From the NCBI RefSeq assembly GCF_000325665.1, contig NC_019908.1, forward strand, positions 2,480,001-2,544,000: DNA of 64,000 bases, written 5' to 3'. Origin of the DNA: Brachyspira pilosicoli P43/6/78. GTDB taxonomy: Bacteria; Spirochaetota; Brachyspiria; Brachyspirales; Brachyspiraceae. Below are positions 9,296-58,240 of the stretch, one piece after another. The notes beneath the pieces are model-generated. The model was given only the letters and a program-made list of their open reading frames with translations. It did not search any database and was not told where the DNA came from. A program made the translations under genes and the position numbers. Each line of letters begins with the position of its first letter. Position 1 is the stretch's first letter.

Positions 9296-9369
9296 TTTAT
9301 AATTTTATATATTTTTTTATATTTTATAATTTTTTAAAATGTATATAATAAAAAATTATGGAGGATGCT

Positions 9370-12300
9370 ATGGACTTAGAAAAAAAACTTGCAATATATT
9401 ATCAAGGCTCTGCTATAGAAGATGATATGGCAAAATGTGAAGCTACAAATGATTTCAGTAAAATAAGAAGGAGTCCTTATGATTATTTTCATTATAAAAA
9501 TGAGTTTTTGAAAGATTATTTTTCTATAGAAGATGAGAAGTTAAAAAAAAGATACGAACATTTTATGAAGATACTTATTTATGGAAAAGATAAGGAAGGA
9601 GAAGGCGGAACTAGATATGTTATTTTTGATTATATAGTTAATAGAGATTTTGAAAAGTCGCTTAGATATCTTACCTATGAATATGATAAAAAATATAAAG
9701 AGTATTCAAGAACTCTAAATGGTGAAACTTTAATATATACAGTTTTTGAAGATTTTAATAAATACTTCAGTAAAGAGTTTTATGAATACACAGATAAATA
9801 TGTTGATATTATTAATAACAATGATAATAAAAAAATATTAAAAAAAATGGACAGAGATGCTGTAATACCATTGATTGCAATATGTTCTGTGATAAAAAAT
9901 AATAAAGACTGTGATAAAAAATATATTGATGCGGCTATAAAATCATTCGATGTTCTTCCTAATGTTTATGATACTCTAAATGTAATTGCTGCTCTTTTGG
10001 ATAAAAATGAAGATATAAAAAATAAATTTATAGAAGTGCTTAATAAAAATGAAGAATATATCATTGACATGAATATTATACTTGGATATTATTTAAGAAC
10101 ATTAGATTATACAAATCCTTATAAAGCTAAAGAGAAATTCTTTAATGCAATAAATTATCCCAATGATTTTGCCTTTATAGCACAGCATTTTGAAGATTAT
10201 TTTCATTATGAGTTTATTTATGGGGCAAGAGATTTATATTTGAATCATAAAGAAGATTTTTATAAAATTTATAATTTTGTAGGAAACAGTTTAAATAGTG
10301 ATAGGTATAATAAGAATAGAAATAATGATAGAAACAAAAGAATATTTTTAGTGCTTAGCGGTGTTTTATTAGAACATAATGATAAAAAAATAGACAATAA
10401 TAATTTAAAAAAAGCTTCAGCTGTATTACAAACAATAGTGAATCATTTTACAAAAGAGGATACTGACAGCTATAGGAAACTTCCTCTTTTTTCTACTACA
10501 GAAAATATTGAAGAGATATTTGATAAAGATAAAAATAAAAACTTTGATGAGCTTATTAAATATTATACAGATAAAAAAAATGCTTATGTGCTTTACAGCA
10601 GATGGGATACTGCTCCAGAAATAAGACTTAATTCAGAGCTTTGTTATATATATCCGTTATTTAATTATGACAGTGATGAAAACAAAAAAATACAAAAAGT
10701 TTGCTATTGATGTTTTGAAATATTTGCCTATTCATATTGGAATAAGAAAATATATAGAAGTTCAAGCCTCTATAGGAAATAAAACTCTAAAAGAAGTTAT
10801 TGACAGTTTATTAAACAACAAAGAATTAAATATTACATTAAAAGAAATTTTATTATCATATTATTTTGATTATGCGGGAGATGCTTCGGGATATTATTAT
10901 AATGATGGAAGAAGTTTGCCTACGCTTTATCATGAGCTTAGATGTTTAGATGAAAATAATAATGTTGTGATAAACAGTGTGAAAGATGAATTATTTAAAA
11001 GCTATTTTGATGAAGTGCTAAATATATTAAATGATGATAAGTTTATAAAAGATAATATAGCACCAAACAAAAATGCGGCATTAGATTTATTGAAGAGTAT
11101 ATATAATAAGATTAATGATTATAATATAGTTTACAAAGTTCTTGAAAACACAAATAGGGCAGAGGTTAAAAGATATTGTTTAAAACTTATTTCCAACAAT
11201 GAAGCTATTACAAGGGATTATGTTGAAAAGATGTCTGAAAAAGTAAAATCTTCAGAGCTTAAAGGAGCTTTAAAAAATATTATTAAGAATTGGAACTTAA
11301 AAAAATACGGCGACAATTTCAAAAGTATTGATGAGGCTTTGGAGTTTATTGACACTTACTACAATAAAAACTATGAGAAAAATATAAAGTTTTTAGATGA
11401 TGTTAAGTTTACAAAAGTTTTATACAAAAACGGCAAAGAGGCTGATGAGAGAGTATTTAAATATATTATTATGGAGTATATGAATTTAGTGGAGCCTGCA
11501 AGATTAAAGGACTGCGACATGCTTGTTGATATTCTTGATGATTCTTCATTTGCCGATGCTTTGGAGAGTCTTTATAGTTATTGGAGCGATTCTAACTATG
11601 AAGCTGCAAAGAAAAATATATTAATACCTTATTTGATATATTCTGATGATTTGAAAATAGATAAGGTTTATCCGCTTATAAAAGAGTTTGCAAAAGGCTC
11701 ACGTACTGTTATGGCAGGATTTATTATAAAGTGTATGGCATTAAACGGAAAAAACTATGCCTTAATATTGGTAGACGGGCTTACAAGAAAAGCTCCTACT
11801 GCAAAAATAAAAGAAGTAGCAATAGAGACAATGGAGAATGCTGCTTATATGCTTGATATGACCGCCGATGAGCTTTCAGATAGAATAATACCTAATTTTG
11901 GATTTAATCAAAAGGGTGAAAGAGTTTTAAACTACGGCGGAGAAGCTAAAAGAACATTCACATTATCAATAAACAATAATCTTGAACTTACAATTACAGA
12001 CAATGAGAAAGAAAAGATAATAAAATCACTTCCTGCCCCAAACAGCAAAGACGATAAAACAGAAGCAGACAGTGCCAAAAAAGAATATACTACCCTCAAA
12101 AAAGAAATAAAGACTTTGATACAGAATCAGAAAATAAGGCTTCAAAAAGTGTTATTAAACGGCAGAAAATGGACTTACAACAATTTCAAAACCGTATTTG
12201 TAGAAAACCCAATAATGAACATATTTGCTTTGAAACTTATTTGGGGTGCTTATGATGAAAACAACAATTTAATAGAAAGTTTTAGGTATATGGAAGACGG

Positions 12301-12820: not shown

Positions 12821-12860
12821 ATTTATTTAATACGCACGGTAATTAGGTAAAAGAATATAG

Positions 12861-12905
12861 AGTAGTTAATAATTTATTTTATAGTTATTAACTACTTTTT
12901 TATTT
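12861..12905 (+). terminator. Rho-independent terminator after the DUF4132 gene
   Basis: A perfect 12-bp stem, AGTAGTTAATAA (12861-12872) against TTATTAACTACT (12885-12896), is followed by TTTTTTATTTTC. The stem is AT-rich but long. Confidence 0.8.
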
Positions 12906-12987
12906 TCTATTTTAAAAAATTTTTATTCATATTTACTTTAAATTTTTATTATGCTAGCCTTTTTAAAGTTAATTTTTTGGAGGCAGT

Positions 12988-13989: not shown

Positions 13990-14244
13990 AATAATTTAAG
14001 TGTATTAATTAAAAAATAATTTAAAAATTCTTTTTACGCACGGTTAATGAAATTTTATATATAATTGAATTTAAATTATTAATTTATTTTAGGGTTAAAA
14101 ACTTATTTTGCGTGCGGTATATATACAATAATTTTAAACGATGCTAGGGTGGGGCTTTTGAATTCTGTTTAAGCAAATAAAAAATAAAAGTTAAAATTAT
14201 AAATAAAAACAATCAAAAATAATGGGTGGGGAATGTAATAAAAG
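13990..14244. other. Gene-free leader of the tandem array with scattered CGCACGG motifs
   Basis: No gene is visible. The stretch holds an ACGCACGGTTAAT motif at 14036-14048 and GCGTGCGGT near 14109. It also has two GGGTGGGG blocks, at about 14148 and 14224, flanking an A-rich tract that weakly resembles a reversed, decayed copy of the adjacent repeat unit. Confidence 0.4.
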
Positions 14245-15632
14245 TTTTAAAATTTAATTACACTTGCCCGCCCTTTAGGTTTTCTGTTTTTTCTTTTATT
14301 TATGTGTTGTTTTTCTTTTTTGTTTTCGCTTTAGTTTTAGCTGCCCGCCCAAGTTTTTTAAATTTGTAGTTTGCACAACGCACGCTAAACTAAGCAAGGT
14401 TTATAAACCAATTAATAATATAATTTTTGTTATGTTTAATAATAAGTTTACCGTGCGGAAAATGAAGCATTATTTAAAATAAAAATTTAATTACATTTTC
14501 CCGCCCTTTAGGCTTTTTGTCTTTTCTTTTATTTATGTGTTATTTTTCTTTTTTGTTTTCGCTTTAGTTTTAGCTCCCGCCCAAGTTTTTTTAAATTTGT
14601 AGTTTGCACAACGCACGCTAAACTAAGCAAGGTTTATAAACCAATTAATAATATAATTTTTGTTATGTTTAATAATAAGTTTAGCATGCGGAAAATGAAG
14701 CATTATTTAAAATAAAAATTTAATTAACTTTCCCCGCCCTTTAGGTTTTCTGTTTTTCTTCTATTTATGTGTTGATTTTCCTTTTTTGTTTACACTGTTG
14801 TTTTAGCTGCCCGCCCAAGTTTTTTTAAATTTGTAGTTTGCACAACGCACGCTAAACTAAGCAAAGTTTATAAACCAATTAATAATGCAGTTTTATTATA
14901 TTAAAAAATCTTTTCACCGTGCGGAAAATGAAGCATTATTTAAAATAAAAATTTAATTACACTTTCCCGCCCTTTAGGCGTTTTGTCTTTTCTTTTGTTT
15001 ATGTGTTGTTTTTCCTTTTTGTTTACTATGTTATTTTAGCTGCCCGCCCAAGATTTTTTAAATTTGTTGCTTACATAACGCACGCTAAACTAAGCAAGGT
15101 TTATAAACCAATTAATAATATAATTTTTGTTATGTTTAATAATAAGTTTACCGTGCGGAAAATGAACCATTATTTAAAATAAAAATTTAATTACACTTGC
15201 CCGCCCTTTAGGCTTTTTGCCTTTTCTTTTGTTTATGTGTTGTTTTTCCTTTTTTGTTTACACTGTTATTTTAGCTGCCCGCACAAGTTTTTTTAATTTA
15301 TAGTTCTCACAACGCACGCTAAACTAAGCAAGGTTTGTAAATCGATTAATAATGCAGTTTTTATCATATTTCAAAATCTTTTTACCGTGCGGAAAATTAA
15401 GCATTATTTAAAATAAAAATTTAATTACATTTTCCCGCCCTTTAGGCTTTTTGTCTTTTCTTTTGTTTATGTGTTGATTTTCCTTTTTTGTTTACACTGT
15501 TATTTTAGCTGCCCGCCCAAGTTTTTTTAAATTTGTAGTTTGCACAACGCACGCTAAGCTAAACAATGTTTTTAAATAAATTAATAATGCAGTTTTATTA
15601 TATTTTATAACCTCTACGCCGTGCGTGCGGTG
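14245..15632. repeat. Tandem array of six 233-234 bp units, non-coding
   Basis: The landmark CCCGCCCTTTAGG begins at 14267, 14500, 14733, 14966, 15200 and 15434, giving spacings of 233, 233, 233, 234 and 234 bp. Each unit runs in this order: the landmark; a T-rich pyrimidine tract of about 60 bases; GCCCGCCCAAG (its second C is an A in the 15200 unit, reading GCCCGCACAAG); a CACAACGCACGCTAA block; the palindrome GGTTTATAAACC (missing or altered in the last units); an AT-rich stretch; the CCGTGCGGAAAATG block; and ATTTAAAATAAAAATTTAAT. The last unit has diverged and ends in GCCGTGCGTGCGG. No conserved reading frame runs through the units on either strand. The array ends about 60 bp before the promoter of the STAS gene. 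Its function is unknown. Confidence 0.95.
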
Positions 15633-15695
15633 TTTTAAACATAATAAAATTTTACTTCTATTATAATAAATATTATTTAGCATTTTTATTAATTA

Positions 15696-15723
15696 TTGAC
15701 TTTAATATTATGTTTGTTATAAT
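15696..15723 (+). promoter_or_regulatory. Promoter of the STAS gene
   Basis: TTGACT (15696-15701), a 16-bp spacer and TATAAT (15718-15723) precede the STAS gene by 34 bp, with a GAAGGAG ribosome-binding site between. Confidence 0.75.
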
Positions 15724-15757: not shown

Positions 15758-16090
15758 ATGAGTTTAAATATAGAAGATAAAGGTAAAGCAAAAGTTGTAA
15801 AATTAGAAGGTAAATTAGATGTTAATTTATCTGTATCTATAGAAAGCGAATTAGATGCTCTTATAGAGTCTGGAAGTATTAATTTGATTTTAGAAATATC
15901 TAAAGTTGAATATTTAAGCTCAAGCGGAATTAGAGTATTCATTAATATGATGAGAAAGATAAAAGATAAAAACGGAAGACTTGTTTTAGCTTCAGTACCT
16001 GATGTAATAAAGAAAATATTAAAAACTGTAGATTTAGAAGATTTATTTGAAGTTTTTGACAGCGTTGATGATGCTTTAGCTACATTCTAA
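15758..16090 (+). CDS. STAS-domain anti-sigma factor antagonist
   Basis: A 110-residue single-domain protein of the SpoIIAA/RsbV type. The signature VEYLSSSGIRVFINMMR near residues 48-64 contains the serine that a partner kinase would phosphorylate. The dephosphorylated form normally binds an anti-sigma kinase and so frees a sigma factor or other client. No kinase or phosphatase gene lies nearby. The next gene is a giant lipoprotein 58 bp downstream; whether they share a transcript is unclear. The length is exactly that of the family. Confidence 0.93.
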   Translation: MSLNIEDKGKAKVVKLEGKLDVNLSVSIESELDALIESGSINLILEISKVEYLSSSGIRVFINMMRKIKDKNGRLVLASVPDVIKKILKTVDLEDLFEVFDSVDDALATF

Positions 16091-57907: not shown

Positions 57908-58240
57908 TAAATGCAGTTCTTTTGCTTCTTTTATACCAATAAAAGAAGTGGGGGTGCGGGGGCTAGTCCCCGCAAATAACAAAAAGTTGTTGTTCTTTTT
58001 CCCGCAGCAAAAAGAACCAAAAAGTGCGAGTGTTTTAGCTTTATATTTTGGAATGTATATGTATATACCTAAAAAGCTAGACTTTATAAATGCAGTCCTT
58101 TTGCTTCTTTGGGTCATACCCATACCTAAAGGTACTTCCTACGGTCGTCCTGAAGGACTCCCTTTGGTCGCAGGACTTCCTACGGTCGCAAAAGAACTGG
58201 GGTTTTACCCTACGGGCACGCTTCGCAGGGGGCAAAGCCC
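57908..58240 (+). repeat. Interspersed repeat, double copy (B-A-B)
   Basis: A compact B copy (AAATGCAGTTCTTTTGCTTC to GGGGGCTAGTCCCCGC) is followed by module A (TTCTTTTTCCCGCAGCAAAA) and the GTGTTTTAGCTTTATATTTT linker. A long B copy ending GGGGGCAAAGCCCCAG completes it. Open frames here are by-products of the repeat. Confidence 0.8.

Follow-up and report, generated by a model that had tools for sequence, protein, structure and literature searches.

A genus-wide family of BIME-like intergenic elements in Brachyspira with short boxes conserved in place

A tandem array of six non-coding units in the chromosome of Brachyspira pilosicoli P43/6/78 is part of an intergenic element family that is real, genus-wide and selected, and whose layout resembles both BIMEs and MITEs. 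Comparison of the copies indicates, with a probability of roughly 0.6, that the family is a BIME-like mosaic of paired sites for protein binding, of which the array would be a tandem expansion. The window, that is, the whole stretch of DNA analysed here, comprises 64,000 nucleotides (positions 2,480,001 to 2,544,000 of contig NC_019908.1), and coordinates refer to it unless otherwise indicated.

Results

The array consists of six direct tandem units of about 233 bp at 14249-15634. Tandem Repeats Finder reported a repeat at 14249-15588 with a period of 233, 5.7 copies, 88% matches and a score of 2059; a separate repeat finder placed the copies 232-235 bp apart, and the units are 82-97% identical to one another. 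No coding sequence of at least 80 amino acids was found within the array, which, together with the output of the repeat finders, bears out the preliminary description of this DNA as six non-coding tandem units of near-constant period.

Two kinds of module make up these units. In the G module, two boxes form an inverted pair (CGCACG...CGTGCG) whose starts lie about 74 bp apart, and the box has the fuller form (A/C)CGCACG[G/C]T, followed by the inverted copy; in the C module, CCCRCCC occurs twice as a direct repeat, with about 77 bp from start to start. Each array unit has the layout C-C-G-G plus a linker. On the forward strand, unit 1 (14249-14481) carries C boxes at 14267 and 14344 and G boxes at 14379 and 14452, unit 2 (14482-14714) carries C boxes at 14500 and 14576 and a G box at 14612, its second G box having become CATGCG, and unit 3 (14715-14947) carries C boxes at 14733 and 14810 and G boxes at 14846 and 14918. 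Unit 4 (14948-15182) has C boxes at 14966 and 15043 and G boxes at 15079 and 15152, unit 5 (15183-15415) has a C box at 15200, a second C box altered to CCCGCAC, and G boxes at 15313 and 15386, and unit 6 (15416-15634) has C boxes at 15434 and 15512 and G boxes at 15548 and 15620/15624 (CGTGCGTGCGG), all likewise on the forward strand. In the window CCCGCCC was counted 13 times, compared with 0.27 expected from shuffles, and CGCACGST 12 times, compared with 0.18. Upstream of the array we found a G module (14037-14116; CGCACG at 14037 and CGTGCG at 14111) and, on the reverse strand, a C module (14147-14230; CCCACCC at 14147 and 14224, 77 bp apart). Together these form a degraded inverted unit at 14037-14230, head-to-head with unit 1 and outside the stretch described previously.

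Within the array, deviation from the majority base was observed in 2 of 144 cells (1.4%) for the G/C bases of the boxes and in 37 of 248 (15%) for other G/C bases. The distinction between conserved and drifting blocks made in the preliminary description therefore stands for CCCGCCC, CGCACG and CGTGCG. It does not extend to the palindrome GGTTTATAAACC, of which only units 1, 2 and 4 have an exact copy and which is no conserved part of the family elsewhere.

Inspection of the copies matched by array units in the B. pilosicoli P43/6/78 genome showed the modules to be joined at fixed distances, with a gap of 36-38 bp between C and G modules and about 42 bp between opposed C modules (C- to C+). The largest common form, G-CC-CC-G, is mirror symmetric, and its successive G modules lie about 345 bp apart. 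The two C boxes differ in their flanks: CCCRCCCTWTA is the left-hand sequence, and the right-hand box reads CCCRCCCAAG before running into a T tract. G modules vary little in length: 275 of them measured 77-83 bp, and a genus-wide search with spacers of 36-65 bp between G boxes returned 46 matches, compared with more than 1,700 for 55-75 bp. Small indels do occur, and G modules are also found alone, without the other parts. Strict helical phasing of the G boxes was considered and found unsupported, since counts of off-length G modules across the genus fall off smoothly, with no peak at one turn shorter.

Two further sequence features were noted near these modules. A probable half-decayed G module at 12833-12910 on the forward strand retains one CGCACGGT box and encloses a hairpin (AGTAGTTAATAA...TTATTAACTACT) with a run of T behind it; this hairpin with its T run resembles an intrinsic terminator, lies inside some G modules, and has similar counterparts in genomes G002 and G021. 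Separately, a GC-rich short repeat (containing CTTCCTTCGGTCGC, with an 18-bp tandem AGGACTCCCTACGGTCGC) was seen in Brachyspira intergenic DNA, including 58154-58190 of the window and positions 9320-9640 of a sister-species locus (L094), and in one case it lay directly upstream of a single C/G unit.

A search with two array units against the B. pilosicoli P43/6/78 genome yielded 23 DNA matches, many of them distant from the array. Using an exact G-module pattern (CGCACG, 55-75 bases, CGTGCG), we counted 52 modules in this genome. Of 25 other Brachyspira genomes, 22 contained 28-147 each, one contained two and two contained none; the reversed pattern, used as a control, gave zero matches in Brachyspira. 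The unit, which the preliminary description had proposed to look for in related genomes, is thus genus-wide rather than restricted to the array. In genomes G001, G003 and G019 the family is nearly or wholly absent, through loss or ancestral absence. Sister genera, represented by three genomes, had no exact G module; two genomes from more distant members of the order gave 18-22 matches, which are at least partly background because the control pattern also matched there (7 and 22 times). The copies in the B. pilosicoli P43/6/78 genome form about 45 separate loci, and the approximately 45 sites sampled there were all intergenic, with about 13 between convergent, 18 between tandem and 9 between divergent genes by hand count. 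Their positions along this chromosome were not graded between origin and terminus (KS p 0.99). Among the matches listed for another species (G004), no exact G module lay within the initial 607 kb, and the terminus region (1.1-1.7 Mb) contained 44 loci (7.3 per 100 kb), a dense stretch. Phage and plasmid collections contained no DNA similar to the element, so an origin from either was rejected. In the open Brachyspira genome papers and other open literature searched, we found no description of these elements.

To avoid choosing copies by their boxes, orthologous intergenic DNA was picked through the flanking genes and not by motif. The element was present in the same position behind a quinone-oxidoreductase-like gene in 10 species, in place at the 1752155 locus in 13 of 13 species, and kept in four or five species at three further loci. 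When the five loci were pooled, 26 of 1084 cells (2.4%) deviated from majority G/C in the boxes, compared with 261 of 1071 (24%) in the interior. Taken individually (n = 5), the loci gave 1.7-3.4% for box and 21-29% for interior G/C, a six- to seventeen-fold difference at each alone; the pooled Fisher value of 2e-57 is overstated, as the cells share ancestry. At a sixth locus, behind lepA, the values were 9% and 31%, the former raised by one species without the C module. Deviation at G/C third codon positions in two flanking genes was 27-28%, a level similar to that of the interior, which by this comparison appears to evolve at a near-neutral rate. Similarity of the interior was 0.81 between species at one locus and 0.77 between loci of one genome (best strand). 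The rate of change in the boxes is thus about one tenth of that in the intervening DNA, demonstrating that the boxes are held in place by selection: they alone are under strong purifying selection, and the remainder drifts.

Conservation of the boxes is not uniform. Genome G025 carries several damaged boxes at two orthologous loci (L146 and L201), more than its close relatives, as if selection were relaxed there, and a natural loss of the putative binding protein is possible. Box decay was also observed at one module each in G016 and G021, and various species have lost entire modules. Individual copies are therefore dispensable.

The array ends upstream of a gene for a STAS-domain protein (15758-16090, forward strand; Pfam PF01740, E 5e-19), a neighbour outside the element, and a putative promoter for this gene was read by eye at 15696-15723 on the same strand (TTGACT at 15696-15701, TATAAT at 15718-15723). 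In B. alvinipulli and a related MAG, no element lies upstream of the STAS gene, and B. alvinipulli nevertheless has a TTGACT/TATAAT-like promoter sequence there. Because this promoter exists without the element, and because other copies adjoin genes of all orientations, the link of the array to the STAS regulator gene, whose promoter the preliminary description places just after it, is incidental.

Discussion

Function as paired protein-binding sites is likely, judging from how the copies have diverged. The elements display purifying selection on sequence-specific sites, as expected of a protein-binding array, and short sequences conserved without conserved pairing point to protein recognition of double-stranded DNA, so that we infer the boxes to be double-stranded sites for a putative protein. 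The preference expressed at the outset for protein-binding sites over neutral duplication accordingly gains support from the genus-wide occurrence of the unit and from conservation limited to the boxes. Counting against binding are the decay of boxes at some loci and the existence of two Brachyspira genomes without the family and one with two copies. In the mechanism we propose, one or two putative sequence-specific Brachyspira proteins would bind the boxes, the fixed distances would bring the bound proteins into contact, and the AT-rich DNA between them would be looped, wrapped or bridged, while copies would arise and grow via duplication and recombination between modules. As the sites adjoin genes of every orientation, chromosome organisation or insulation is the best-fitting role, and the lack of an origin-terminus trend in the B. 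pilosicoli P43/6/78 genome weakens a macrodomain role. A more specific version can be put forward only tentatively: a genus-specific organising or insulating system in which one or two putative proteins act on paired CCCRCCC and CGCACG boxes at about 30-150 intergenic sites per genome, bridging or wrapping the intervening AT-rich DNA with a fixed geometry. Short non-coding sites that recur and are under selection are also known from multi-site architectures such as parS, matS and regulator arrays; the Brachyspira elements differ from these in combining two box types in a fixed composite geometry and in having no origin or terminus placement in the B. pilosicoli P43/6/78 genome.

Among the closest known parallels are the REP/BIME sequences of enterobacteria and Pseudomonas (REP is described in PMC2817692). 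In both, short modules that alternate in orientation at fixed spacing make up intergenic mosaics present in many copies, with tandem expansion and suspected protein-binding sites. However, the Brachyspira modules are box pairs of about 80 bp, whereas REPs are hairpins of 20-40 nt; no imperfect hairpin of that length with a conserved stem was found in the family, whose conserved parts are boxes of 6-7 bp, kept in place between species. The Y1 transposase of the RAYT type (PF01797) was detected in 0 of 26 Brachyspira genomes and in 5 control genomes, and a link to REP/RAYT was rejected on this basis.

An unlikely alternative, though the strongest of those weighed here, is that the elements are non-autonomous and MITE-like, the boxes being sites recognised by a transposase that is supplied from another source, the copies relics of transposition. 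Bacterial MITEs and small mobile sequences such as ERIC/RU and Correia are non-coding and intergenic, with inverted terminal motifs and tens to hundreds of copies (PMC10969869), and the Brachyspira elements share all of these properties. Their related copies are dispersed (65-80% identity) and symmetric, with inverted terminal boxes, the copy number ranges from 28 to 147 between species, two loci 18 kb apart (L160 and L161) carry a 92% identical element with no similarity reported outside it, and some loci show decay and deletion. Nevertheless, relics should decay evenly, whereas conservation at fixed sites, in up to 13 species, is about ten times stronger for these boxes than for the interior, and G modules can stand by themselves. 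Neither a target-site duplication nor a clean empty site was seen in the orthologous regions that lack the element, which were rearranged or too divergent, and no transposase or parental transposon was noticed in or near the copies inspected.

It is less probable still that the modules act at the RNA level, being transcribed, often as mRNA 3' ends, and serving as hairpins or processing signals. Several elements begin 25-40 bp past a stop codon, and the mutually complementary G boxes could close a stem. By contrast, the C boxes, as direct repeats on the same strand, cannot pair inside their module, and sites are also located between divergent genes. The arms of the G module did not covary: observed complementarity was 15.5, compared with 16.3 in shuffled pairings, the slight deficit arising because the two ends differ (often GT versus CAGA). 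No compensatory box changes were seen, the exact sequence rather than the pairing being kept; fold energy was ordinary for the composition on both strands (z about -1.3), and Rfam returned no match. Membership of a structured RNA family was rejected on these grounds, leaving the repeated small RNA, the other candidate of the preliminary description, which had itself suggested a covariation analysis, unsupported.

As to the array itself, a sister species carries one single unit at the corresponding place (L094), so the six units are most likely a recent tandem expansion, probably from one unit. In a B. pilosicoli assembly (L093) the sequence ends within a unit at this place, and unit 6 is the closest of the six to the units at both loci; a different species has a tandem duplication with a 345-bp period and 94% identity. 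When the unit was originally described, it had been overlooked that a dispersed element with two modules had expanded here in tandem. Neutral tandem duplication without function, the null model for the array, is highly improbable: the six copies against one in the sister species and the pattern of units 1/2/4 versus 3/5/6 resemble unequal recombination, and the extra copies themselves may lack a selected role, but the unit is genus-wide, its boxes are conserved and those in the array deviate far less than its other G/C bases. For the unit itself such an account is already unlikely, since the unit is not confined to this locus and its divergence is not random across blocks, the two features that the preliminary description had named in advance as favouring it being absent.

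Bacterial intergenic repeats are usually taken as selfish relics. Here, boxes of a repeat family kept at fixed places in up to 13 species provide direct evidence of host-level function, and they pinpoint the exact bases for testing. From the family one can predict at least one new DNA-binding protein in this little-studied genus of spirochetes, and the genomes in which it is nearly or wholly absent (G001, G003 and G019) or decaying (G025) offer natural cases for finding the gene of the putative binding protein.
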